From contig JAFDHG010000033.1 in the NCBI GenBank assembly GCA_019308925.1, positions 1-45,884 on the forward strand: a stretch of DNA of 45,884 nt. The letters run 5' to 3'. Below, piece by piece: positions 14,665 through 39,040 of this stretch. A program made the position numbers and the translations under genes. The stretch comes from Deltaproteobacteria bacterium. Its GTDB lineage: Bacteria; Desulfobacterota; B13-G15; RBG-16-54-18. Every line of letters starts with the position of its first letter. Within the stretch, counting starts at the first letter, position 1. A model generated the notes under the pieces. That model saw only the letters and a program-made list of their open reading frames with translations, ran no database searches and had not been told where the DNA came from.

Positions 14665-16590
14665 TCAAAACGTCAATTTGAGCCCGCCAAAGACCTGGAC
14701 CCCGTCTATATCGTACTCGTCATACGCCTTCTGTCCGCACCTGTCCGAGTAGTACCACCCCACGTTCTTCTTGTTGAAGAGGTTGTCTATCCTCAGAAAG
14801 AGCTCGGGGCGTATGGGAAGGCCCTTTATCTCGGTGATCTCCTTTGTGAAGGCGAGGTTGACTATGGCATAGTCATCTAGCTTTCGGGCGATTTCCGTGT
14901 ATGCGTAGCGCTCCCCTATGTATTCCACCTCCAGGATTGTCTTGAAGGCGATCTGGGGGATATCGTATTGGAGCTCAACATCGACCTTGTGCCTGGGTCT
15001 GAAATCGAGTTCTCTGTGCAGTTGTCTATCCCTCGTGTGGAGGAGCGTGTAGCCGAGGAAGGCCGTGAGGTTTTTGAGGGGACGGAAAGGAGGACGGAAG
15101 GTAAGGCTTAATTCCAGCCCCTGCGTTATGGCCTCCTCTACATTTATCCAGTACATATCAGGCCCCACCCGCTTGGAGTCGATAAGATCTTCAACCTCGT
15201 TCCTGAAATAGACGAGCCTTCCCAGGAAGGTGTCGCCGTAGGTGTATTCAACCCCGGCTTGATAGCCCATGGACTCTTCTGGTTCAAGGTTGGGGTTGGC
15301 GTGCATGTTCCAGGGCCCCATCTTCCACCCATCGGCGTAGAGCTTCACCAGGGTGGGGGATCTGAAGGCCTTTCCCACCGAGCCAAGGAGCCTTAGGCCT
15401 TTCACTACCTCAAGGGAAAGACTCCCCTTGGGGTTGTACTGCGTCCCCCACTCCTTATGATCGTCCACCCTGAGCCCGAGGACAACGGTAAGGGGGTCTA
15501 TTATATTCCATTCGTCCTGGATAAAGAAGCCGTGGGTGTAGGCATCGGCCTTAAATTTCTTTCCGTCATCGTCTATCTCCTGAAGGAGGTAGCTATAGCC
15601 CCCGGTAAAGGTGTGCTCCCCAAAGAGCTTTACCAGTCGGCTGTAGGCCACCTCTCCTTCATAGTTGTCGCTCACCCAGTCAGATTTCCTGTCCTTGGTA
15701 TAGTGTTTGTAGTCGAACCATGACCCCCTGACAGTGAGTTTCGAGACCTCATCCGGTAACCATTCACCGATGGTATTGAGGCCAAACCTCTTCTGGGTGC
15801 GATGCATGTCAACCCTTTTGATCGTCCCGCGGCTACATTTGTAATCCCAGTCCATCCTATTCTTAGAATAGTAGGGTTGAATGCTCAACTTGATATCTAG
15901 GGGAAATTCATACTGAAAGTTGCCCTGAAACATGTGTTCGTAGTATCTGTCGTAGTAATCATGGACCCCATCGGATTTCCGGTAGGTATAATTTAGAAAG
16001 CCTCCGAAGCCCTTGTAGCTGAACCCGGCGCTTGATGAGTGGACCTGTGTATTCCTGCTTCCGAAGCCTGTTGAAGCCGATACAGTCGGTTTTACAGGGG
16101 GCGACTTGGTGATGATATTCACCACCCCTCCCACCGCATCGCTGCCGTAAAGCGCTGAGAAGGGCCCCTTGACCACCTCTATCCTCTCGATCATCTCGAC
16201 GGGGTAGGCCTGAAGGTCTATGGCGGATGCATGGCCCCCGAGGACCCTCTGACCATTCATTAGGACCATGGTATGCTTGGCATCAAGACCCATGATCTGG
16301 ACATGCCCCTTGTCACCCCAGGTCCCCACGTGCTCGGTCACCTTGAGGCCGGGGATCAGCTTCAAGGCGTCCTGGACGGTCTTGACCCCCCTTGCCTCGA
16401 TCTCCTCTTTTGTGATCACCTCCACCACCGCCGGGACCTCTCCGACGGTGCGTTCTGTCTTGGTAGCGGTGATAATTACCTCACCCAGCTCCAATACATC
16501 TCTTTTTTCCTCTTCTTTTTCCTCCTCCCCGAAGGAGAGGCTCGAGAACAGGAAAAAGAGCGCCAGCGTAAAAATTACGATCCTCTTCAT
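14665..16590 (-). CDS. TonB-dependent outer-membrane receptor
   Basis: The product has a signal peptide (MKRIVIFTLALFFLFSSLSF), a TonB-box region (LGEVIITATKTER), a plug domain (GVKTVQDALKLIPGL; IERIEVVKGPFSALYGSDAVGG; VVNIITK) and a barrel ending in a C-terminal aromatic (LKLTF), as needed for outer-membrane assembly. The FRSPT and NPNLEPEES loops resemble the FRAP/NPNL region of heme receptors and also occur in cobalamin receptors. The start at 16588-16590 was chosen because AGGAGGTGA lies seven bases ahead. The gene is preceded at once by the structured element 16619-16714 with its terminator, so expression is probably controlled by premature termination. TonB, ExbB and ExbD are encoded just upstream. 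Confidence 0.9.
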   Translation of the reverse strand: MKRIVIFTLALFFLFSSLSFGEEEKEEEKRDVLELGEVIITATKTERTVGEVPAVVEVITKEEIEARGVKTVQDALKLIPGLKVTEHVGTWGDKGHVQIMGLDAKHTMVLMNGQRVLGGHASAIDLQAYPVEMIERIEVVKGPFSALYGSDAVGGVVNIITKSPPVKPTVSASTGFGSRNTQVHSSSAGFSYKGFGGFLNYTYRKSDGVHDYYDRYYEHMFQGNFQYEFPLDIKLSIQPYYSKNRMDWDYKCSRGTIKRVDMHRTQKRFGLNTIGEWLPDEVSKLTVRGSWFDYKHYTKDRKSDWVSDNYEGEVAYSRLVKLFGEHTFTGGYSYLLQEIDDDGKKFKADAYTHGFFIQDEWNIIDPLTVVLGLRVDDHKEWGTQYNPKGSLSLEVVKGLRLLGSVGKAFRSPTLVKLYADGWKMGPWNMHANPNLEPEESMGYQAGVEYTYGDTFLGRLVYFRNEVEDLIDSKRVGPDMYWINVEEAITQGLELSLTFRPPFRPLKNLTAFLGYTLLHTRDRQLHRELDFRPRHKVDVELQYDIPQIAFKTILEVEYIGERYAYTEIARKLDDYAIVNLAFTKEITEIKGLPIRPELFLRIDNLFNKKNVGWYYSDRCGQKAYDEYDIDGVQVFGGLKLTF

Positions 16591-16618
16591 CTTCTCACCT
16601 CCTGAAATCATGTTGTTG

Positions 16619-20490: not shown

Positions 20491-21291
20491 TCATTCCATG
20501 TCCCTTGCCTGGATCCAAATGATAGCGTCCTGGGAGAACTCCTTGCCCTTGTATTCTTTCTTTGGACCTACACCAAGGGCAGCAAACCCCCACCAGCCGG
20601 CTTTGGGGATACCAAAGGTGAATACACCGTTGGCGTCTGCCTTGATGGTCTGGGTAACAAAGGCATCCTGAGGCGCTTCAACTTTAGCTTTTTTGGCGAA
20701 GGCATTACCCATAACATCGTGGTTCAGATACTCCACCTCGACCTCGGCAAAGGGGACGGGCTTGCCATCGCAATTCACAACGCCCCTAAATACGTTTCCT
20801 GTCCAGAGGGCATAGGGCTTGTCAAGGGGGACGATCTCAGCCGCAAGCCCTATCTCTGCGTCCCAATCAGTGGGAAGACCAGCCACGTTCACGATCATCT
20901 TTGTGATCTGTTGCATATAGATATCCTCTGACTTTTCGTAGTAGGGTGCAGGGACGAGGCAAAATACATAGTCCCCCATCCCTCTGAGTTTGTAAGAAGT
21001 CTTAAAGGCCTTGCCCTCGTTTGTCAGGCTCCTCCAGATGATGGACTTAAGACTCCCCTTAAGATCCTTTTTCTTCCCCTTATGGACGACAAAAAACCCC
21101 TCAGGGGTGCCCATATCCATGGTATGCCCGGCCTCAAAGGGATGAGTAAAGACCAGCTTGAAGTCTATCTTCCCTCCTTTGGTCAGGGCACTCTCCGGGG
21201 TGTAAATCATCTGGAAATGGGCAAAGGCAGGGACACTCAACGCAAAGACCATCAACCCAATCAGTAACAACAACCTTACCCTTTTCATCAT
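20491..21291 (-). CDS. DUF4198 periplasmic protein, second copy
   Basis: The 266-residue product has a signal peptide ending at VPAFAHFQMIY; as in the other copy, His follows the expected cleavage site. Family patterns are DFKLVFTHPFEAGHTMDMG, EIVPLDKPYALWTGNVFRG and KADANGVFTFGIPKAGWWGF. It stands directly downstream of FeoB and a small periplasmic protein in the same direction. Two ATG codons lie side by side; the second fits the ribosome binding site (GAGGG) better. It probably binds a metal or chelate in the periplasm and hands it on; the metal is not known. Confidence 0.85.
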   Translation of the reverse strand: MMKRVRLLLLIGLMVFALSVPAFAHFQMIYTPESALTKGGKIDFKLVFTHPFEAGHTMDMGTPEGFFVVHKGKKKDLKGSLKSIIWRSLTNEGKAFKTSYKLRGMGDYVFCLVPAPYYEKSEDIYMQQITKMIVNVAGLPTDWDAEIGLAAEIVPLDKPYALWTGNVFRGVVNCDGKPVPFAEVEVEYLNHDVMGNAFAKKAKVEAPQDAFVTQTIKADANGVFTFGIPKAGWWGFAALGVGPKKEYKGKEFSQDAIIWIQARDME

Positions 21292-21311: not shown

Positions 21312-21632
21312 TTATTCAGTGATATCCTCGCCCTTTACCTCCACCACATGGCCTGGTCCTGCATCGAAGATCACCTTGAAGGGCACATCAGGCCTCTTGA
21401 AGGTGAACTCGCTGTCCTCATTCATCTTACCTTTGATGAGCACTTTTCCCTTTGCGTCCACCACCTTCATACTCACACCAGCAGCCGAGGAACCGTCAGA
21501 GAAGCCACCTTCGCAGGTGATGGTCCCATCCCCATTGTCGAAGCAGGAGCACAGCGGTGTGTGGGAAAGGGCCTGCCCAGCCAGAAAGATACACAATGTC
21601 AGCAGACCAATGCCGAAAAGGACCTTCTTCAT
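21312..21632 (-). CDS. Small exported Cys-rich protein, 106 aa
   Basis: The start MKKVLFG (ATG 21630-21632) has a strong GGGGGTGA site and gives a signal peptide ending at ALSHTPLCSCF. A His again follows near the cleavage site. The mature protein begins with a CSC pair and then CEGG, then a carboxypeptidase-regulatory-like beta domain (AGVSMKVVDAKGKVLIKGKM; KRPDVPFKVIFDAGPGHVVEV). It sits between FeoB and the DUF4198 protein. A degraded relative lies at 13477-13642. It may be an accessory metal-binding protein; I know no named family. Confidence 0.75.
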   Translation of the reverse strand: MKKVLFGIGLLTLCIFLAGQALSHTPLCSCFDNGDGTITCEGGFSDGSSAAGVSMKVVDAKGKVLIKGKMNEDSEFTFKRPDVPFKVIFDAGPGHVVEVKGEDITE

Positions 21633-21637
21633 AAGAC

Positions 21638-24139
21638 TCACCCCCTTTCTAGTATATCTTCTTTATATTTCGGCTCCCTCCTGATGAGAGCCATCAATGC
21701 CGTTATGGCTATTGCCATGGCATAAAATCCAACCATCGCCCCCATCCCGCTCAGGCCGAGGAGATTCCCACCGCTGAACACCAGGATAGCCATCATCAAC
21801 CCCAGGAGGGTAGGGTAGAGGGCGGCAAAGAGCATCCACATCCATCCTAGGCGTCCTGACTCCAACTTGACCATGATAAGGGTGGGGATGCAGGGGGGAT
21901 ACATGGCCATGAAGATTATGATGGCCAGGGCGTGAAGGGGGGTGAATCCCTTTTCCTTCTTCTTCATCCTCGCCTCGAGGGCTGCCTTCTCTCCCCCTGA
22001 TGGTTGGTAAATAGCCCCTAAGGTAGCCACACTGCTCTCCTTTGCTGCAAAGGAGCTCAGGAGGGCGATGTTTATACGCCAGTTGAACCCTGCAATCTTA
22101 GTAAGGGGTTCGAGGAAACGACCAAAGCGCCCCAAGTAACTGGAGGAGATGGTTTCATCCTTTTTATGCCTCAAGAGCTTCTTTCTGGCTCTAACCAGTT
22201 TCTTAAAGGTCTTGTTGACCTTTTTTGCCTCCTTATCCCTTCCTGGCTTTACGATCTTGAAGAATTCTGGGTTTTCCCTCCGGAATTCTTCATCGATGGC
22301 CCTCTTTTTCTCCTTACTCTTTGCACCCATCCTGGCCTTTTTGTAATCGTTCCAGTATCCCATAAACTCCATCAGCCTCGGTCCCCCAAGGAGGCCGGCA
22401 TAGGGATTGCCCTCTATCTGGTTAAAAAAGGTGGTGATTGCCCCTTGCGCCCGTGTCTCGTAATAGGCCTCCCTCTCCTTATTTAGTCCAGGAAGGCTGA
22501 TGAGGACATAGACGATGAGGGCTATGACGATGATGATGGTTATGACCTTCCTGACAAAGAGCCAAGTCCTCTCTAGGCAGCGACGCAGAACGCCCTGCGC
22601 TGTGGGGAGTTGATAGGGGGGCATCTCTAAGATAAAGGGTGCACTCTCTTTCCTTCTGAGGACAGTGAGGGTCAGGGCCTTGGCCACTGCCAGGGCTACG
22701 ATAATGGTGATGGTGGCGATGAAGAACATAACCATGCCCTTGTGCTGGACAAAGAATATACTGACAAGCAGGGTATAGAAGGGGATCTTTGCCATACAGT
22801 TCATGAGAGGGACTGTCAAGATGGTCGCCATCTTCGCCCGCTCGTCCTTGATGGTCCTACAGGCCATCACCCCTGGTATAGCTCACCCCCCTACAAATAC
22901 GCCGCCCAGGATTAGAGGGAGGGTGGACTGGCCGTGGAGGCCGAAGTGGCGGAAGATCCTGTCAAGGATAAAGGCCATCCTGGGCATGTATCCTGTATCT
23001 TCTAGGATGGCTATCAAGGCGAACAATATCAGAAAAAGAGGGACATAGTTCAGGACTGCGATGACACCGTCAACCACCCCTAAGGGGACAGAGCGGATAA
23101 GGGGTTCCTCTATAAAACCAGGGGAAGGCAGAATTGAGGCCACTAGCTCCTTGAACCCGGCAAGCAGCGGCCAGGTGTAGGCAGTGACCTTATAACCCTG
23201 GACAATGGAGAGCTCAAAAAGGGCATAGATGATCGCAGCCAGGATGACAGGCCCCAAGAATCTGTTGCAGACGACCTTGTCAATCATATCGGACAGGGTT
23301 GAAGGGACCTCTCGTTTCTTCCTGACGGAGTGCTTTACGATCTCATCCGCGCTCTGGTATCGCCGGGTGGCAATGAACCTCTCCGGTGCCTCATTGTGCT
23401 TAGAGGCGAACTCCTCCCTCTTTGTCTCCACATATTTTAGGATCTCCTTGGGGTCTTCGAGGTGTTTCTCGATGAGTCTCTGTGTCTCGCTGTCGCCCTC
23501 CATGAGTTTTACTACAAGCCACCTCAGGGGGTAGCTCGCAGAGAGTTGTTCGCTCTTTGAAAGCTTGCTTTCCAGTTCCTTCAATATGGGTTCTAGAGGG
23601 CCATAATCAATACGAAAGGGTTTAAAGGCCTCCCTCCCTTTATAGGCCTCAAAGGTGGCCTTCCGAAGCTCCTTCTTTCCTTTTCCTCTGTTTCCAACCG
23701 TAGGGACTACAGGGGTTCCGATGCGTCTGCTCAACTCTTTCACATCGATCTTAAGACCCCGTCTTTCTGCCACATCCATCATATTTAGATCGATGACCAC
23801 GGGGATCCCCATCTCCAGGAGTTGGAAGGTGAGGTAGAGGTTTCGTTTGAGGTTTGAGGCATCGGCGATATCAACAACCAAGGCGGGTCTTTTATGGAGG
23901 ATAAAGTCCCTTGCTATCCTCTCCTCTAAGGAATAGGAGGTGAGGCTGTAGGTTCCAGGAAGGTCAACCAGTTCTATCCGCGTATCCTGGTAACGATATG
24001 TGCCCGACTTTTTCTCCACGGTCACCCCAGGGTAGTTGGCCACATGTTGACGGGCACCTGTGAGCATGTTGAAGACCGTCGATTTACCCGAATTTGGCTG
24101 CCCTGCCACTGCCACCAGGGCCTTTTCTTTCCTTTTCAT
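21638..24139 (-). CDS. feoB: FeoB ferrous iron transporter with an in-frame TGA at a conserved Cys (probable selenoprotein)
   Basis: Read as one gene with TGA as residue 419, this is a normal FeoB of 833 residues. The G domain has GQPNSGKSTVF (G1), VDLPGTYSLT (G3) and NMMD (G4). The Gate/core membrane domain follows. The first half ends LPLILGGVFVGG, then TGA (22883-22885), then AIPGVMACRTIKDER in the same frame. The family has Cys here (GCxxPxxMATRT); the second FeoB in this window reads GFGCNIPAIMATRT. The second family cysteine (VPLMNCMAKIPF) is intact and no other lesion is seen. This favours selenocysteine over a random stop, with a possible SECIS just downstream. The alternative is a nonsense mutation, or a split FeoB from an internal GTG at 22868-22870. 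It is coupled to feoA upstream. Confidence 0.75.
22849..22885 (-). promoter_or_regulatory. Candidate bacterial SECIS hairpin for the FeoB TGA
   Basis: After the TGA, 13 bases are followed by UGAUGG/CCAUCA (22864-22869 with 22849-22854), a perfect 6-bp stem. Inside it CC/GG can pair around UGUA with a bulged A. The apical loop starts about 21 bases after the TGA and has G at its second position. This fits the general rules for bacterial SECIS elements as I remember them (short stem, G early in the loop, 16-37 bases from TGA), but those rules are loose. Confidence 0.45.
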
Positions 24140-24375
24140 AATGGTTCTACTTCCACATATCTTGCCTCATCATGGCGGATACTGACTTGGTATTCACCCA
24201 AGCTGATCTCCACCGGGTCTATGAGGGGGGCATTGCGGATGACCTCTATCTGGACTCCAGGGATAAAACCCATGTCTAGCAACCGCTGGCCCAAGATACC
24301 CGTGGCCATTATCCCCTTGATCCGACACTGCTCCCCAGGTCTGATCTCATCCAAGGTCATTGCCCACCCTTTCAT
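24136..24375 (-). CDS. feoA: FeoA-type SH3-like protein
   Basis: The 79-residue product has the FeoA pattern LDEIRPGEQCRIKGI, LGQRLLDMGFIPGVQIEVI, and DPVEISLGEYQVSIRHDEARYVEV. FeoA binds FeoB on the cytoplasmic side. It overlaps the feoB start by four bases and the mini-FeoA upstream by four bases (ATGA), so translation is coupled. Confidence 0.88.
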   Translation of the reverse strand: MKGWAMTLDEIRPGEQCRIKGIMATGILGQRLLDMGFIPGVQIEVIRNAPLIDPVEISLGEYQVSIRHDEARYVEVEPL

Positions 24376-24473
24376 TCCACCCGGACCTTCTGGGCCATAC
24401 CATGACCAATGGTGATTGATTCATCTTCCACCTTTGCCTTTTCTCCGATTTGGAGTTCGCTTAAGAGTTTCAT
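24372..24473 (-). CDS. Mini-FeoA, 33 aa, with the middle of the domain missing
   Basis: Behind a good ribosome binding site (AAGGAG, 6 bases before ATG 24471-24473) the frame reads MKLLSELQIGEKAKV, which is a FeoA start, and ends ITIGHGMAQKVRVE, which is a FeoA end. The central 40 or so residues of the SH3-like barrel are absent. It keeps its site and overlaps the next feoA start, so it may still be translated as a leader for coupling. It is either an internal deletion remnant or a reduced functional peptide. Confidence 0.6.
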   Translation of the reverse strand: MKLLSELQIGEKAKVEDESITIGHGMAQKVRVE

Positions 24474-26570: not shown

Positions 26571-27344
26571 CTAGACCTCCTCTATATAGACATTAGAGGC
26601 CTCTTCTTTACGTAAAGAAAGATGGTACCCCTTCAGCTTGACCTCTACTGGGTCTCCGAGGGGGGCTATGTATTCCATCTCCACGATGGCCCCAGGCACC
26701 ACTCCCATATCCAGTATACGTTGGTGAATCTGGTCTGTCCCCTTGACCTTGGCGATTCTTCCCTTTTGGCCAGGTGAAAGCTCCATCAATGACTTTTCTA
26801 TGGGTTGCGCCTCTTTTCTTGTTTCCATCTCTTTTAGCTTGAAGTCGAATTCCTTCACAAACTCCCTCATGTGCCTCAGGCACTCTTGCGGTGAATGGCC
26901 CTCAGTACCCTTGGCACAATAAGTGGCAAATGATTTCAACCAACTGGGACCGCTTCGAGGACAGACCTCTATGAATTCCATAAACTCCACCAGCCGCTCC
27001 ATGGTCTCAGGACTTACGGCATGCTCCATCTTGCAGGCATCTTCCTCGGCCCTTTTAAGGTCTATACCCAAGATGTTGGATAGGAAACTGGATAGTAACT
27101 CGTGCTTGCGCTTGACCTCTTTGGCTAGATCCAAACCCTTATCAGTCAGCTCCACGTATTCATATTTTTCATGGTTGATCAGGCCCCTTTGCATGAGGGT
27201 GTTGAGCATGCTGGTCACGGTGGGGAGCTTAACGTCCATGTTTTTGGCTATGTCCTTGACCCGGACAGCCTTCTTTTCCTCTTCTAAAAGAAGGATGGCC
27301 TCAAGATAATCTTCCATGGTGGGGGTCAGTATTTCATTATTCAT
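26571..27344 (-). CDS. DtxR/MntR-type metal regulator with a C-terminal FeoA domain
   Basis: Residues 1-75 form the winged helix (TPTMEDYLEAILLLEEEKKA; PTVTSMLNTLMQRGLI); residues about 75-140 the metal-binding dimerisation domain (CKMEHAVSPETMERLVEFM, with the Cys/Met, Glu and His ligands expected in this family); residues about 180-257 a FeoA/SH3-like domain (LSPGQKGRIAKVKG; DMGVVPGAIVEME; LSLRKEEASNVYIEEV). A CP...C cysteine cluster (EVCPRSGPSW, YCAKGTEGHSPQEC) lies between them and could bind a second metal. The promoter contains a perfect inverted repeat, which suggests autoregulation. It probably controls the iron genes here. Confidence 0.9.
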   Translation of the reverse strand: MNNEILTPTMEDYLEAILLLEEEKKAVRVKDIAKNMDVKLPTVTSMLNTLMQRGLINHEKYEYVELTDKGLDLAKEVKRKHELLSSFLSNILGIDLKRAEEDACKMEHAVSPETMERLVEFMEFIEVCPRSGPSWLKSFATYCAKGTEGHSPQECLRHMREFVKEFDFKLKEMETRKEAQPIEKSLMELSPGQKGRIAKVKGTDQIHQRILDMGVVPGAIVEMEYIAPLGDPVEVKLKGYHLSLRKEEASNVYIEEV

Positions 27345-28976: not shown

Positions 28977-30992
28977 TTAAAACACTCTTCCTATCTGATA
29001 TATTAACACCGCCAATATCCACCCCAGGATCAGGCTATAGCTTACGGCCAAAAGGGTCCAGCGCCAATTGGTCTCCCTCTTTATGGTGGCGATGGCGGCG
29101 ATACAGGGGATGTAGATGAGGGACATTGTCATAAATGCATAGGCCGAAAGGGGTACGAAGTATTGAGGAAGGACCTCCCTAAGTCCCTCTCCCTCCACTC
29201 CATAGAGCGTCCCCAGGGTGCCAACCACCACCTCTTTGGCCACGATCCCGAAAAGGAGCGCTACCGCTGCCTGCCAGAAACCAAAACCAGCCGGCTTGAG
29301 GAGGGGGGCGAATATAGAACCCAACCTCCCAATCAGGCTCCCCTGGGAACCGTACTCCACTCCCGGAGGGAGAGAGGCCAGCAACCAGATCAGCACAACC
29401 CCTGCAAAGATGATAGTCCCTGCCTTGCGGACGAACAAGCTCCCCCTCTCCCACATGTGCAAAATGACCCCCTTGAGGGAGGGGAGGCGATAGGGAGGAA
29501 GTTCCATGATCAAGGGCGCCACCTCCTCCCTGAAGAAGATGGCCTTAAATATCCGCGCCATAATGGTGGCCAGGACGATACCCAAGAGGTACAGGGAAAA
29601 GACCACCAGGCCTTGCCTCTGGGCGAAGAATGCCCCGGCGAAGAGGGTGTAGATGGGCAATCTGGCCGAGCAGGACATCAAGGGGTTAACCAGGATCGTG
29701 AGAATTCTGTCCTTTTTGCTCTCCAGGGTCCGGGTGGCCATGATGGCCGGGATGTTGCAGCCGAAACCGATGATCATCGGGATAAAGGACTTACCATGCA
29801 ACCCGAGGGCATGCATCAACCTGTCCATCACAAAGGCGGCCCTGGCCATATATCCCGAGTCCTCCAGGATGGCGATGGCGAGAAAGAGTAGCAGGATATG
29901 GGGTAGGAAGACCAGTACCGATCCGACCCCTGCGATGATCCCATCGGAGAGGAGGGATATGATCCAGGGGGGCGCCCCAAGAGGTTGGAGGAGGGAGGTG
30001 GTGCCACTGCCCAACCAGCCGAAGAAGGCATCGATCAGGTCGGCCAATGGCCCGCCCAGGCCGAAGACGATTTGGAAGGTCATTACCATGAAGGCGAGGA
30101 AGATAGGGATGCCCAGATACTTATTGGTCAACACCTTATCTATCTGGTCGGACCAATTTATCCTCTCTTCTATATCGGCCCGCTTTTTTATGCACTCCTT
30201 GCACAATCCGTGGATATAACCATATCTCCTTTCGGCGATGAGGGTCTCCAGATCATCATACCCCAGATCTCTTTGGACCTTGAGCAAAAACCGGTTCAAC
30301 TTACCCTCATCGATCCCTTTTCTATAGAGCAGTTTCAGGACGTCAGGGTCTCCTTCTAAGAACTTGATGGTGCTCCATCGAGGGGGATAAGGGAAGTCCT
30401 CCAGGGATCTGATCTCTTCCTCCACCTCTTCGATCATTGTTTCGGTATCCCGGCCATAGTCGATCTTGAACTTGTTATCGGTTCTGGTAGCGGTTGAGAG
30501 GATGGTCTTTTTGAGGTCTTCTATCCCCTGTCCCTTGTTTGCTACTGTGGGCACCACGGGTGCCCTTACCACGTCCGAGACGGTCTGGATGTCTATCTCC
30601 CACCCGCGCTTTTCAGCCAAGTCCAGCATATTGAGACAGATGATCAGATTGACCTTCAACTCCAGGAGCTGGGTGACCAGGTAGAGATTTCTCTCCAGGT
30701 TGGTGGCGTCAACGATTGCAACCACCAGATCGGGCCTCTCCTTCACCAGGAAGTCTCTGGCGATCTTCTCATCGATGGAGTAGGCGGTGAGCCCATAGGT
30801 GCCGGGGAGGTCTACCACCCTCACCCGCGCCCCCTGAAAGGTGAACTCCCCCTCCTTCTTTTCCACCGTGACACCGGGCCAGTTGCCCACATGCTGCCTG
30901 GAGCCGGTGAGCTGGTTGAAGACAGTGGTCTTGCCCGTATTGGGGTTGCCCGCCAGGGCAATGAGTATCTCCTTTCCCCCCTTTTTCTTCAC
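28977..30992 (-). CDS. feoB: FeoB ferrous iron transporter, cysteine form
   Basis: The 671-residue product has GNPNTGKTTVF (G1), VDLPGTYGLT (G3), NMLD (G4), a helical spacer and the membrane domain with GFGCNIPAIMATRT and LVNPLMSCSARLPIY, both family cysteines present. Length is normal for the shorter FeoB type. It ends the feoA-feoA-feoB operon that starts near 31.7 kb. It differs in the region around the first Cys (no GGVFVGG insertion) from the TGA-containing FeoB at 21638-24139, so the two are distinct subfamilies. Confidence 0.95.
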   Translation of the reverse strand: MKKKGGKEILIALAGNPNTGKTTVFNQLTGSRQHVGNWPGVTVEKKEGEFTFQGARVRVVDLPGTYGLTAYSIDEKIARDFLVKERPDLVVAIVDATNLERNLYLVTQLLELKVNLIICLNMLDLAEKRGWEIDIQTVSDVVRAPVVPTVANKGQGIEDLKKTILSTATRTDNKFKIDYGRDTETMIEEVEEEIRSLEDFPYPPRWSTIKFLEGDPDVLKLLYRKGIDEGKLNRFLLKVQRDLGYDDLETLIAERRYGYIHGLCKECIKKRADIEERINWSDQIDKVLTNKYLGIPIFLAFMVMTFQIVFGLGGPLADLIDAFFGWLGSGTTSLLQPLGAPPWIISLLSDGIIAGVGSVLVFLPHILLLFLAIAILEDSGYMARAAFVMDRLMHALGLHGKSFIPMIIGFGCNIPAIMATRTLESKKDRILTILVNPLMSCSARLPIYTLFAGAFFAQRQGLVVFSLYLLGIVLATIMARIFKAIFFREEVAPLIMELPPYRLPSLKGVILHMWERGSLFVRKAGTIIFAGVVLIWLLASLPPGVEYGSQGSLIGRLGSIFAPLLKPAGFGFWQAAVALLFGIVAKEVVVGTLGTLYGVEGEGLREVLPQYFVPLSAYAFMTMSLIYIPCIAAIATIKRETNWRWTLLAVSYSLILGWILAVLIYQIGRVF

Positions 30993-33558: not shown

Positions 33559-34172
33559 GCATCAGTGCAGTACCTTGAGAAGCAGGGGAGGCAGAGGGTC
33601 TTTCCATTACAGATCCTTGCCCGCGTCTCCATACATTCTTCTCCGCAAAGGTCGCACCGGAGGTTGTTGAAGACCATGGCCTTAGGGGGAGGCTCTATTT
33701 CGGCCTCCTTTACCTCAAAGAAGACCTTATTGGGTATCTCCAGGAGGGAGAGGGCGATCCGTCGATGGTTTTCTTTAAACCTTTTTTGCTCCCTTTCATT
33801 AGCATCGCCCGCTAATACTTTCTTGGACAAGGCTGGGTGACCGGGGTACTGTTGCCAGATGTCGCCCTGGCCCTTGGCATAGAGCCTGACGACCTGGTTA
33901 TTGTCCCGCCGTCCGAAGAAGTAGACATGCTTGCCATGATCCCAAAACTTTATGTTCCCTTTGCCAAAGGTGCAGCCGGTGATTACCTGAACGGCGTCAA
34001 AGGCACAGGAGTTGTTAGAGACAATGGCAAAGAGGTCCTCATGGGGAGGAGTTATCCCCAGGAGTTGGAGACTATAGGTGGAGGCCTTGTAGCCGATGAC
34101 CAAACCCGGACAGAGGTGTCCGTGGAAATCCACACAACGAGAAAGCAATATCGGTATTGGTTGCTCTTTCAC
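33555..34172 (-). CDS. FmdE-family protein with a C-terminal zinc finger
   Basis: The 205-residue product shows VDFHGHLCPGLVIGYKAS and SCAFDAVQVITGCTFGKGN, the metal-site pattern of the FmdE domain (His and Cys near residues 14-19), and then a zinc finger (RCDLCGEECMETR...CLPCFSRYC). FmdE-like proteins accompany molybdenum or tungsten enzymes or metal importers; the biochemical function is uncertain. The start overlaps the ABC ATPase stop (ATGA), so it belongs to the transporter operon. This links the transporter to metal or cofactor delivery. Confidence 0.88.
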   Translation of the reverse strand: MKEQPIPILLSRCVDFHGHLCPGLVIGYKASTYSLQLLGITPPHEDLFAIVSNNSCAFDAVQVITGCTFGKGNIKFWDHGKHVYFFGRRDNNQVVRLYAKGQGDIWQQYPGHPALSKKVLAGDANEREQKRFKENHRRIALSLLEIPNKVFFEVKEAEIEPPPKAMVFNNLRCDLCGEECMETRARICNGKTLCLPCFSRYCTDA

Positions 34173-35770
34173 TTTTGCCCCCTTTCTTCTTCAGCGAATC
34201 TCCTCCAATAATTGTCTGCCCCCTCATATTTGTGGCGGTCGAGGTCGAGGACTTGATCGGCCACCTTGGAGGCGAGTCCCAAATCGTGGGTGATGAAGGT
34301 CAAGGAAAACCCCATCTCGGCCTGTAATTCGAGCAAGAGGTGCAGAATATCTGAGCGCAGAACCGGATCTATCCCTGCGGTGACCTCATCAGCAATAAGG
34401 AGGGTAGGACTGAGGACGATCCCTCTGGCAATGGCCAACCTGGCGATCTCGCCCCCGCTCAGGTGGTGTGGGTACTCTTGGAGAAAGGCGGTAGTGGTTG
34501 GCAAGGCGACCAACTCGAGGGACTGTTTAATGAGGAGGGATCGCTCCTCTTTTCTCCCGGGGCCATGGAGCAAAAGGGGTTCCTCCACCACCTCCCTCAC
34601 GGTGAAACGGTGGCTTATGGTCTCATGGGGGTTTTGGGGGATGAGCTGCACCTCTCTCTTTAGATCGGAGAGGTTGTAAGTGACCTTTCCCTGGAAGTGG
34701 CGTATCTGCCTTGCCATGACCCTGGCAAGGGTAGTCTTACCACTGCCCACCTTACCCACTACGGCAATGGTCTCACCCCTTTTGATCTCCAGGGAGACGG
34801 GGGGGAAGACCTCTTTCCCCTCATAGCTTACGGTGACACCCTCCAAGTGACAGACAGTCTCAATTCCTCCCAGTAGGCAGCGGATAAGACGACCAGGGGA
34901 GACCTCCTGCAGGGGAGGGAAGACCTTTGAGCATTCCTTCTGTTTCTGAAAGCATCGAGGGGCATAGGGGCACCCCTCTCCCCCTGCCGGTGCCCTCTTC
35001 ATCCTCTCCAATTCCTTCTTGCGGTCAAGGGATGGGGAACTTCTGATAAACTGGCGTGTATAAGGGTGTAGCGGTTTACTGAAGACCTCCTCCTTTGGTC
35101 CTACCTCTACCGAGGTTCCCCGAATGATGAAGATCACCTCGTCAGCCAATCTCTGTGCCTCCTCGACATTGTTGGTCACAAGGAGTATCCCCTTTTCTGT
35201 CTTGAGCCCTTCGATAATCTCCCAAACCCTCCTTTTGCTTTTCCTATCCATAGAAGAGGTAGGTTCGTCAAGCAGCAGTATGGGAGGGTCGAGGATCATG
35301 GCATTCAGAAAGAGGGCCTTTTGCCTCTCGCCGCCGCTTACCTGGTGGGGGTATCTCTCCAAGAGGCCCGGGGAGAGCCCAAGGCTCTTTATCCATCCCT
35401 CCAAATCGATGCGTGGGGGCACCCCTCGTTTTCTCGACACCTCCAGGATTTGATACGTCAGGGGAAAAGAGGGGTCAAACCAGTTGAAGCTATTCTGGAA
35501 GACCATGGAGACCTTGGTCCAGCGATAGTCTCTTAAATTCCTTATCGCTCCTAAGGGTAATCTCTCCTCCCCAATCCTGATGGCTCCCTCCATCTTGGCC
35601 TCATCGATCAATCCCATAATGGCCCTGGCGATGGTGCTCTTGCCACTGCCCGACTCACCGAGGATGGCCACAAGCGTTCCTGTCTTCAACTCAAAGGAGA
35701 GCTCCCGTGCAGCCACCACGGCCTCTCCCCCTCTAACATATTCTACCTGGAGACCTTCAACAGCAATCAC
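34169..35770 (-). CDS. ABC transporter ATPase, DppD and DppF halves fused
   Basis: The start is the GTG at 35768-35770, which overlaps the permease stop and has GAGGAG ahead. The product has two complete ATPase domains: GESGSGKST, SGGERQKALFLNAM and LLDEPTSSMD in the first, and GKVGSGKTT, SGGEIARLAIARG and LIADEVTAGID in the second. Between them is the Cys motif of the peptide/nickel family (CPYAPRCFQKQKECSKVFPP), which in other members binds an Fe-S cluster. Usually DppD and DppF are separate genes. Confidence 0.92.
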   Translation of the reverse strand: MIAVEGLQVEYVRGGEAVVAARELSFELKTGTLVAILGESGSGKSTIARAIMGLIDEAKMEGAIRIGEERLPLGAIRNLRDYRWTKVSMVFQNSFNWFDPSFPLTYQILEVSRKRGVPPRIDLEGWIKSLGLSPGLLERYPHQVSGGERQKALFLNAMILDPPILLLDEPTSSMDRKSKRRVWEIIEGLKTEKGILLVTNNVEEAQRLADEVIFIIRGTSVEVGPKEEVFSKPLHPYTRQFIRSSPSLDRKKELERMKRAPAGGEGCPYAPRCFQKQKECSKVFPPLQEVSPGRLIRCLLGGIETVCHLEGVTVSYEGKEVFPPVSLEIKRGETIAVVGKVGSGKTTLARVMARQIRHFQGKVTYNLSDLKREVQLIPQNPHETISHRFTVREVVEEPLLLHGPGRKEERSLLIKQSLELVALPTTTAFLQEYPHHLSGGEIARLAIARGIVLSPTLLIADEVTAGIDPVLRSDILHLLLELQAEMGFSLTFITHDLGLASKVADQVLDLDRHKYEGADNYWRRFAEEERGQK

Positions 35771-36609
35771 CCTTGTTGTCTCCTCAATCTTGGTTCCACC
35801 ATTTCTTCCATCATGGCTCCAAGAACCCCCAGGCTGATCAGTAGCAGTGACAGGGCGACAGAGGGACCTAAGAGCCACGACCACCAGTTGGGAAAACCAG
35901 GATACTCCAGGGCGTTGCGCAACATCCCCCCCCAGCTTTTCCCCTCAAAGGCACATACCCCCAAAAAAGAGGCGATGGCCTCCAGAAATACACCCATCTT
36001 GAACTTCCTCACCACGGCCAGCATGATCAGGGGGTAAAGTTCTGGCAATACGTGTCTGATCAGCAGATAAGGCCTCTTTGCCCCCAATCCCTCGGCATAT
36101 CTTACGTAAGGTTTGGTCAAGGTCTCTTTGATCTTCTCGCGGAAAATTCTGGTGCTATGGGCCCAGAGGAAAAACGAGAGCAGAAGGATCAACCGGACGG
36201 CATCTACCTCTATGTATACTCCAAAGAGGATGATCAGCAGGAGGGAGGGGATGGTGATCATCAGGTCAACAAACCTCATGAGGACCTGTTCCATTGCCCA
36301 CCCCATTGTGGTGGCGAGGAAACTGAAGAGGATGGCGATAAAAGTTCCCAACAGCGCACAACCAAATCCTATCCATAGGGTATACCTCGCCCCCCAGATC
36401 ACCTCACTGAGGATATCTTGTCCCAAATCGTTGGTTCCTAGAATATGGCGCAGATTGTAGGTGAGGAAGGGACTGGTAACGTAGTCACCCTCCGGATAAG
36501 GGGCCATCCAGAAAGGGAAGATGGCCAGAAGAAAAAAGATGAGGATTATCCCGAGGCAGGCCCAGGCGAGCTTTTCCCTTTTCAGGTATCCCCAGTACTG
36601 AATGTGCAT
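35767..36609 (-). CDS. ABC permease, DppC/NikC-like
   Basis: The 280-residue product has about six membrane segments and the family EAA loop around YAEGLGAKRPYLLIRHVLPELYPLI. An N-terminal segment with PFLTYNLRHILGTNDLGQDIL is typical of DppC-type permeases. It overlaps the DppB-type permease by one base and the ATPase by four. Confidence 0.92.
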   Translation of the reverse strand: MHIQYWGYLKREKLAWACLGIILIFFLLAIFPFWMAPYPEGDYVTSPFLTYNLRHILGTNDLGQDILSEVIWGARYTLWIGFGCALLGTFIAILFSFLATTMGWAMEQVLMRFVDLMITIPSLLLIILFGVYIEVDAVRLILLLSFFLWAHSTRIFREKIKETLTKPYVRYAEGLGAKRPYLLIRHVLPELYPLIMLAVVRKFKMGVFLEAIASFLGVCAFEGKSWGGMLRNALEYPGFPNWWSWLLGPSVALSLLLISLGVLGAMMEEMVEPRLRRQQG

Positions 36610-37532
36610 TATTCCCTCACCCCCAATCTTTTGTTTATCAGGTCCGCCGCAAGGTTAAACCCCAACACCGACATGGTGAGCAGGAGGATGATCCCGTTGA
36701 TAAGGGGGTAGTCCCGTGAGAGGATGGCCTCCTGAAGGAGAGAACCCAGTCCAGGATAGTGGAATACAACCTCCACGACAATTCCCGCTGTCAACAGGGT
36801 GCCCAATGACACGGCTAACCTCTGGATCCAGAGGGGAAGGATGTTCCTGGCTAGGTGAAGGTATTTGATCCTCGTATTCCCCACCTCCTTGGCCTGAAGG
36901 GCGAGGACGAAGGGTTCCTTCAGGAGAAAGACCACGTTGTTTCGAGTCAGGAGGAAGTTCAGGGTGACGTGGGAGACAATGAGGGTTAGGGTGGGGAGAA
37001 CGAGATATTGAAAGACCTCCAAGGGACCGGAGCCGGAGATGGAGGTGACCCCTCCCGGGAAGAAGCGATAATAAAAGAGGTAAAGGAGCACACCGCCCGA
37101 GACCATTGGCGGGAGGGCACCGAGGCCGATAAAGGTAAAGAGCCCCAGGCGGTCGAAAGGGCTGTCTTTCCTGGTGCCCGCCTCCATCCCGAAGATGAAG
37201 CCTATCAAAGCAGAAAAGAGGAAGGCCGGCACGACCAAAAACAGACTCCTCCTTCCATAATCCCAGAGGAGGTGGGATACCTCCTCCTGCTCCACTAGGG
37301 AGTAGCCCAACTCCCCAACAAAGATATTTTTCAAAGAGGTAAGGACTTGTTCATAGATGGGTTTGTCCAATCCGTAACGAGCCCTGAGGGATTCTAATAG
37401 GGCCGGGGGGACCTCGGCTATAGGGTCGTTATAATAGAGCTCCAGCGGGTCCCCCGGCAAAAGATGTGGGAGGGTAGAGAGGAAGGTCAAGATGAGAAAA
37501 AAGGCTATGGTATAGGATACAAATAGCCTCAC
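36609..37532 (-). CDS. ABC permease, DppB/NikB-like
   Basis: The 307-residue product has about six membrane segments and starts LFVSYTIAFFLILTFL, then LPGDPLELYYNDP and YGLDKPIYEQVL, patterns of DppB-type permeases. The EAA loop lies near KEVGNTRIKYLHLARNILPLW. It overlaps the binding protein gene by four bases. Confidence 0.92.
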   Translation of the reverse strand: MRLFVSYTIAFFLILTFLSTLPHLLPGDPLELYYNDPIAEVPPALLESLRARYGLDKPIYEQVLTSLKNIFVGELGYSLVEQEEVSHLLWDYGRRSLFLVVPAFLFSALIGFIFGMEAGTRKDSPFDRLGLFTFIGLGALPPMVSGGVLLYLFYYRFFPGGVTSISGSGPLEVFQYLVLPTLTLIVSHVTLNFLLTRNNVVFLLKEPFVLALQAKEVGNTRIKYLHLARNILPLWIQRLAVSLGTLLTAGIVVEVVFHYPGLGSLLQEAILSRDYPLINGIILLLTMSVLGFNLAADLINKRLGVRE

Positions 37533-39040
37533 TGCTTCCTTTCGACAAAGATCAGTTTGTTAAGAGGCAGGGGAATCCCGAAGGCGACTCCCCCTGGCGT
37601 CAGGTAGAATTCTGCCTTGTCACTAAAGGCATAATACCAGGTCGGGTAATAAAGGGTCAAGGCAGGGAGCTTCTCGGCATAGACCTCCTGAAATTTGCAC
37701 ATGACCTTTCTTCGCTCCTCTTTGTCCCTTAACCTTTCCACCTTCTTTAAGAGGGCCTTCAACTGTGCGTCCTCGAACCTGGCGCTGTATGTGACCTTCT
37801 GGGTGATGAATTTAACCATCATTGAGGGCGCTCCACCAAGACCGCCGTGCCCCGTGATGGCGAGATCGAAATTGTCCTTCATGATCAGGGCATCGGCCGT
37901 GTTTAAGTCGTAGAATCGCACTTTTACCTTCAGACCCACCCCTTTCAATGCCTTCTGGACAAACTCTGCATCCTTGCGGAAGCGGCTAGAGGCGATCATC
38001 GTAATCTCGGTGGGGAGGTTGGCCTTTCGGATTAAACGCCTTGTCATCTCCGGCCTATACGGGTATTGATTTGAAGAGGGACAGTACCAGGGATTATCAT
38101 CTGGGAGAAAATTGGGATTCCCCTTTTTGGCAAAGCCCATCTTCACGATTTTTACCATGGCCTCCCGATCTATGGCGTAGGCAATGGCCTGCCTGGCCTT
38201 TTGGTGGGTAAAGGGGCCTTTGCGCGTATTGAACAAGAGCTTCAAATTCCAGTAGGATGGGCCGGAGATTACCTTTAGCCCATTTTCCTGCATGCGGGGG
38301 ATCATCTTGCCGTTTATCCGGGCCATGTCTATCTCCCCGTTTATGAGGGCCTGGTGTTGGTCAGGCACCTTTTTGAAGATGACCTTCTCGAACTTGGGTT
38401 TCCCCATGAAGTAGTCATGATTGGCCCGGTAGATGTACAGGTCCTCGCCCTTGTGGTATTCCTCTAAGATAAAGGGACCAGTGCCAATAAAAGAGCGAGG
38501 CGCCGTGAAATGGTACGGATCTCCCACACCCTTCCAGATATGTTCAGGAATGATAAGCATGGTCCCCACATAGTGGCCGATAAAGTCCGGATTTGGGCCC
38601 TTGAGGTATACAGTGACCTTCCTTCCCTTGACCTGAACATCTTTGATTAGACAGGAGACCTTACCGTAAAAGGGGACGGGGTACTTAATAATGTATCGGA
38701 AGGTAAAAGCCACATCCCGGGCCGTGAGGGGCTTTCCATCATGCCAGAGGATTCCCTCTCGAATCAGGAAGGTCCAGCTATTTTCCTTCTCATTATAGGA
38801 CCACTTCTCTGCCAAGAAGGGGATGGTCCCCTTTTGGTCCTTCCACACCAAGGTATCAAAAAGGAGAGAGGCCCTGCAGTATCCTGGTCCACGGGGGACA
38901 CAGGTGTAGGGATTTGGATAGCCCCAGGAGGCCCTCAGACCGGTTGCATCCCCGAGGACAATGGTCTGCGCCCTACCTGTGGGGATAAGGGTTAGCAATA
39001 AAAAGAACAGGAAAGACAACAAGATATAAATTCTCTTCAT
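37529..39040 (-). CDS. Periplasmic binding protein of the peptide/nickel family (SBP_bac_5)
   Basis: The 503-residue product has a signal peptide ending at PTGRAQ and the family-5 patterns FLAEKWSYNEKENSWTFLIR, LWHDGKPLTARDVAFTF and QAIAYAIDREAMVKI. Ligands in this family are peptides, nickel chelates, heme or sugars and cannot be read here. The FmdE protein at the end of the operon makes a metal or cofactor ligand plausible. The start at 39038-39040 has GGAGGTGA, placed right after the T-run of the hairpin at 39057-39109. Confidence 0.9.
   Translation of the reverse strand: MKRIYILLSFLFFLLLTLIPTGRAQTIVLGDATGLRASWGYPNPYTCVPRGPGYCRASLLFDTLVWKDQKGTIPFLAEKWSYNEKENSWTFLIREGILWHDGKPLTARDVAFTFRYIIKYPVPFYGKVSCLIKDVQVKGRKVTVYLKGPNPDFIGHYVGTMLIIPEHIWKGVGDPYHFTAPRSFIGTGPFILEEYHKGEDLYIYRANHDYFMGKPKFEKVIFKKVPDQHQALINGEIDMARINGKMIPRMQENGLKVISGPSYWNLKLLFNTRKGPFTHQKARQAIAYAIDREAMVKIVKMGFAKKGNPNFLPDDNPWYCPSSNQYPYRPEMTRRLIRKANLPTEITMIASSRFRKDAEFVQKALKGVGLKVKVRFYDLNTADALIMKDNFDLAITGHGGLGGAPSMMVKFITQKVTYSARFEDAQLKALLKKVERLRDKEERRKVMCKFQEVYAEKLPALTLYYPTWYYAFSDKAEFYLTPGGVAFGIPLPLNKLIFVERKQ

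Follow-up and report, generated by a model that had tools for sequence, protein, structure and literature searches.

Bacteria take up ferrous iron mainly through the importer FeoB; how metal gets past the cysteines of its gate is, to our knowledge, still unsettled. Most known selenoproteins are redox enzymes. In a 45,884-nucleotide stretch of DNA from a deltaproteobacterium (assembly GCA_019308925.1, contig JAFDHG010000033.1; referred to below as the window, which means this whole stretch), a feoB gene carries TGA where one of these cysteines would be encoded. Is the gene broken, or is the UGA read as selenocysteine (Sec)? An initial annotation, made from the DNA letters alone, had named it a candidate selenocysteine iron transporter, and the selenocysteine part of that proposal is now supported by TGA at this codon in six genomes and by a Sec pathway in the host. 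On this comparative sequence evidence, it is highly probable that the gene encodes a full-length FeoB-family transporter in which UGA codon 419 is decoded as Sec by the host SelB and tRNA-Sec. We call the predicted product Sec-FeoB. The gene, its UGA and the other iron genes used for comparison are as follows.

21638-24139, minus strand: Sec-FeoB gene, 833 residues with selenocysteine predicted at residue 419, terminal TGA at 21640-21638; matched by Pfam and TIGR00437
22883-22885, minus strand: in-frame TGA, the predicted selenocysteine codon (U419), at the position of Cys403 in E. coli FeoB
26571-27344, minus strand: fusion of a DtxR-type iron-dependent repressor with FeoA, located between one feoB gene and the other
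28977-30992, minus strand: the window's second FeoB (671 residues), with Cys at the same column; an internal comparison

The two halves of the Sec-FeoB gene (open reading frames 22883-24139 and 21638-22870) had been said, with no strand given, to lie in one frame with the TGA as sole interruption. This is the case on the minus strand: reading through from 24139 to 21638 gives a complete FeoB whose only internal stop is the TGA, in the context LGGVFVGG-U-AIPGVMACRT. The open codons flanking it number 428 and 415, against at most 164 and 112 for the other in-frame TGAs of the window with long open stretches to either side. Gene calling based on stop codons cuts the gene in two at the UGA, which makes Sec-FeoB easy to overlook. 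The product has the Pfam domains FeoB_N, FeoB_Cyto, Gate (twice) and FeoB_C, and scores 499.7 bits against NCBIfam TIGR00437 (cut-off 315.65). It thus shares with the E. coli protein the GTPase, cytosolic helical, two Gate and FeoB_C domains as well as an adjacent FeoA, and the two are 34% identical over 550 residues.

In the alignment, residue 419 falls on Cys403 in the GFGCNVP motif of E. coli K-12 FeoB, and the other gate cysteines are kept as C448 (E. coli Cys432) and C750; with U written as C, positions 419, 448 and 750 are invariant in the eight FeoBs aligned. The second FeoB of the window has GFGCNIPA at the column of residue 419, as had been noted. The window protein differs from E. 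coli FeoB in having Sec for Cys403, preceded by a few additional residues (GGVFVGG-U versus GFG-C), in having a charged insert at about residues 550-660, and in having operon partners that resemble NikL and DUF4198. The conserved gate Cys by which FeoB membership is judged (E. coli C403) is absent from the window gene, where Sec is its direct analogue; this loss leaves the gene within the FeoB family, in which the Cys is common but not indispensable. An AlphaFold model built with eight sequences had a mean pLDDT of 63.7, with values below 50 around residue 419, and was set aside; because of this low confidence, the gate role of the residue rests on homology.

The initial annotation had called for a search for sel genes. 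In the host genome (G000) this search found SelA (630.9 bits), SelB (399.7 bits), tRNA-Sec (selC; 79.4 bits, anticodon UCA) and two SelD genes (L119, L152), both of which have TGA where SelD is known to carry Sec and provide an internal positive control.

G000:C22:130-1053: SelD gene with in-frame TGA at the Sec site
G000:C3:63912-64748: SelD gene with in-frame TGA at the Sec site

All six hosts of a Sec-FeoB gene have tRNA-Sec. SelA gave no match at E<=1e-20 in G046, a single-contig assembly that encodes SelB, tRNA-Sec and a Sec-type SelD along with its Sec-FeoB, and was not found in the fragmented assembly of G163; the G046 result counts against Sec decoding. A second tRNA-Sec-like match in G046 was rejected, being tRNA-Cys.

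Homologues were sought by whole-genome searches in up to 970 genomes, repeats included, and the codon at the residue-419 column was read in 70 genes of the subfamily. It is TGC or TGT (Cys) in 63 of these, TGA in six and GGC (Gly) in one, so that the TGA does replace a conserved FeoB Cys, as had been claimed. The TGA genes are L025 (the window gene, G000), L027 (G046), L061 (G141), L078 (G163), L082 (G397) and L083 (G409); the five further genomes belong to two other lineages, and identity between lineages is 64-70%. A second internal stop, which the initial annotation had suggested looking for, was found in none of the six. Codons for Sec and Cys occur side by side: the window gene's closest relative, an orthologue in G003 that is 82% identical, has TGT at the column; G141 has two feoB copies, one with TGA and one with TGT; and two genomes of one genus, with near-identical context, have TGA (G409) and TGT (G410). 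In the class of G369 (390 genomes), 62 genomes have members of the subfamily and every gene read has Cys at the column; the matches in this class whose locus was left unread contain no internal stop. The one Gly codon belongs to L072 (G276:C1:1886014-1888464), whose adjacent relatives have a CC pair (GGCCVPG). Several stops were considered as column-419 stops and rejected: L127 has its TGA, and L133 and L140 their TAA, at other positions, and among distant homologues with stops (e.g. L036, L038, L092, L093) all those read have Cys. Relatives were absent from viral contigs, and from plasmids at E<=1e-100.

A tree built after masking column 419 distributes the TGA genes over three well-supported (starred) clades, each of which also has Cys members. 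By parsimony the TGA/Cys label changes five times, at least three of these changes being forced by starred branches. Such scattered exchange between Sec and Cys is typical of selenoproteins, and unlike what is seen in decaying genes.

Two stretches downstream of the UGA were examined as possible RNA signals.

22874-22882, minus strand: GCTATACCA, the nine bases 3' of the TGA, shared without change by the six TGA genes from three lineages
22849-22869, minus strand: SECIS-like hairpin, a candidate only, with a 6-bp stem, an inner 2 bp, a bulged A and the loop UGUA

The hairpin had been proposed as a SECIS element. Its place and its spacing hold: a UGAUGG/CCAUCA stem with an inner CC/GG and a single bulged A carries a loop that begins 21 bases past the TGA, and the TGA genes allow a hairpin with a loop that starts about 20-25 bases past the UGA and has G as its second base. 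TGA genes are not alone in having it: a comparably strong hairpin (-8.9 kcal/mol) is present at this place in L026, the closest Cys homologue. RNAalifold found no supported covariation among the six TGA sequences. When hairpin energy was set against synonymous recodings the values were 3% for L027, 0% for L061 (a different hairpin), 17% for L025, 27% for L083, 62% for L082 and 87% for L078, so that the test is significant for only some TGA genes. An Rfam scan reported no SECIS in Sec-FeoB, nor in the SelD positive controls, and hence is undiscriminating here. We regard the hairpin as a candidate SECIS that is not specific to TGA genes.

The conservation of GCTATACCA is a better sign. Synonymous sites between the TGA lineages are near saturation, yet these nine bases are common to all of them; from codon usage, the chance that three lineages agree at the three codons is about 0.0009, and empirically four of 161 three-codon windows, this one included, agree across the three lineages. 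Among 64 non-TGA genes the stretch occurs in two, L080 and L090. Both lie within TGA clades, where recent replacement of Sec by Cys would be expected to leave such genes. Part of the conservation could stem from common descent.

Since five other genomes carry this substitution too, mutation and sequencing error are both very unlikely. That a TGC or TGT was misread as TGA, as might be suspected of a window from a 120-contig draft, has a negligible probability, since the five other assemblies are independent, one of them (G046) being a single contig of 2.54 Mb, and since the nine bases past the TGA are those of the distant TGA genes and not the GCCATACCG found in the closest Cys gene.

A nonsense mutation, at which translation would end and leave the 3' half as a pseudogene remnant, had already been judged the less likely explanation. 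The TGA itself is what such decay would produce, and an adjacent feoA-like open reading frame (24372-24473) does resemble a genuine deletion remnant, but a decaying gene would not be expected to share its TGA codon with genes of five other genomes, three lineages being represented in all, nor to lack any second stop. Selection also speaks against decay. In close pairs, TGA-TGA pairs included, Nei-Gojobori omega is 0.12-0.16 upstream of the TGA and 0.07-0.22 downstream; for the TGA-TGA pairs the downstream values are 0.074 (L082/L083) and 0.170 (L027/L061). These ratios indicate that purifying selection acts on both halves of the gene and that the 3' half is translated. We consider decay scarcely credible.

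Could the gene instead encode a split FeoB, with translation stopping at the TGA and re-initiating just 3' of it to give two cooperating half-proteins? In the window gene a restart is conceivable at a GTG-ATG pair 12-15 bases past the TGA. In L078, L082 and L083, however, the downstream Met is replaced by Leu (CTC), and the next in-frame ATG lies about 30 bases past the TGA, beyond the gate motif. Moreover, orthologues encode a single uninterrupted chain, and a split would leave the Cys at this column in other genes unexplained. This arrangement is very improbable.

The alternative that survives best accepts Sec decoding and gives it another meaning, namely a selenium- or redox-dependent switch on the amount of full-length transporter, with no special selenol chemistry in the gate. 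Bacterial UGA decoding, as described in one report (PMC4513850), competes with termination, reaches 30-40% recoding and depends on selenium, and a regulatory role would suit a family in which Cys functions at the column in most relatives and one genome, G141, has both forms. The repeated exchange of Sec and Cys at a residue conserved throughout FeoB nevertheless speaks for the side chain having a role, and we think it unlikely that a switch is the main function.

Our preferred reading is thus that SelB and tRNA-Sec decode codon 419 to yield a single full-length FeoB in which the side chain matters. The selenol of Sec419, in the first Gate domain, would take on the function that Cys403 has in E. 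coli FeoB, and could act as a softer, more acidic ligand or as a redox-sensitive gate for a divalent metal, whose crossing of the membrane would be controlled by the GTPase domain. An earlier proposal places Cys residues of FeoB along the path of the metal (PMC4847171).

Which metal does Sec-FeoB carry? The initial annotation had assumed iron, which is the default for the FeoB family; the conserved operon, in the order feoA-feoB-small secreted protein-DUF4198, points as much to nickel or cobalt. The partners of feoB are:

24136-24360, minus strand: feoA (74 residues), which shares four bases with the start of feoB; Pfam FeoA, E=1.2e-21
21312-21641, minus strand: small protein, predicted to be secreted and probably starting with HTPLCSC when mature, like the first half of NikL (a subunit of the nickel/cobalt ECF transporter)
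20491-21291, minus strand: DUF4198 protein, predicted to be secreted, mature N-terminus probably HFQM; Pfam PF10670, E=2.3e-61

The small secreted protein has the motif HTPLCSC...GDG...CEGGFSDGSSAAG and matches no Pfam family above threshold. Against the NCBIfam NikL model (NF058648) it scores 53.5 bits (50-54 overall) where the cut-off is 100, and only over the first 91 of 180 positions; it therefore resembles the N-terminus of NikL and falls short of assignment as NikL. It lies 3' of feoB in 50 of the 64 homologues with sequence there, including all five such TGA genes. This small NikL-like protein, with its probable N-terminal His and CxC motif, is widespread and linked to the FeoB subfamily of Sec-FeoB. 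The DUF4198 protein scores 208 bits against a PF10670 gathering threshold of 34, and DUF4198 is also found downstream in the operons of G046, G141 (both copies) and G409. Judging from their signal peptides, both secreted proteins of the window probably begin with His once mature.

A DUF4198 protein of Ideonella binds nickel through its N-terminal His with a Kd of 18 nM (PMC12537917), and NikK and NikL are components of a nickel/cobalt transporter (PMC2667541); other DUF4198 genes have been tied to iron acquisition (PMC11870441). Since the DUF4198 family has nickel-binding members, the cargo of Sec-FeoB may be nickel or cobalt instead of, or besides, iron. The operon is like the NikKMLQO nickel/cobalt ECF transporter in having DUF4198 and NikL-N-terminus-like proteins, and unlike it in that no NikM, NikQ or NikO was seen beside Sec-FeoB, FeoB being the membrane part. 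The two secreted proteins, with their probable N-terminal His, would pass the metal to Sec-FeoB, and ordinary iron uptake could be covered by the canonical second FeoB and the DtxR-FeoA regulator. It is conceivable, though less likely than not, that Sec-FeoB forms the membrane channel of a nickel (or cobalt) uptake system not described so far. Its DUF4198 and NikL-like periplasmic proteins, with their N-terminal His, would hand metal to the gate selenolate, and the subfamily would have swapped its cargo from iron to a softer metal.

The feoA-like open reading frame at 24372-24473 (minus strand, 33 residues, MKLLSELQIGEKAKVEDESITIGHGMAQKVRVE) corresponds to no more than the two ends of a second FeoA-like protein, which is found near the operon in other genomes, and looks like the remnant of an internal deletion. 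Other uptake genes of the window encode a Peripla_BP_2 binding protein (328-1317), a TonB-dependent receptor (14665-16611), an oligopeptide/nickel-type ABC ATPase (34169-35884) and an SBP_bac_5 binding protein (37529-39040).

An inventory of 119 prokaryotic selenoprotein families published in 2026 lists several transporters in its Table 1 and no FeoB (PMC13188914). These transporters (mercuric transport protein, cation ATPase, YeeE/YedE, SaoP and the SO_0444 Cu/Zn efflux protein) resemble Sec-FeoB in mediating membrane transport, in many cases metal-linked, and in a predicted UGA-encoded Sec; they differ in belonging to families unrelated to FeoB. Searching the full-text literature, a scope that takes in few subscription papers or preprints so that an earlier report is possible, we found no report that links FeoB to selenocysteine or selenoproteins. 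Judged by the criteria usual for computational prediction, Sec-FeoB is predicted to be a new selenoprotein family and is the first Sec form of FeoB that we have found described. It adds a family in which the selenol probably meets a metal ion. The exchange of Cys and Sec in the FeoB gate is a natural experiment on this residue, and a natural swap at a single gate position, even within one genome, marks the residue as chemically important.
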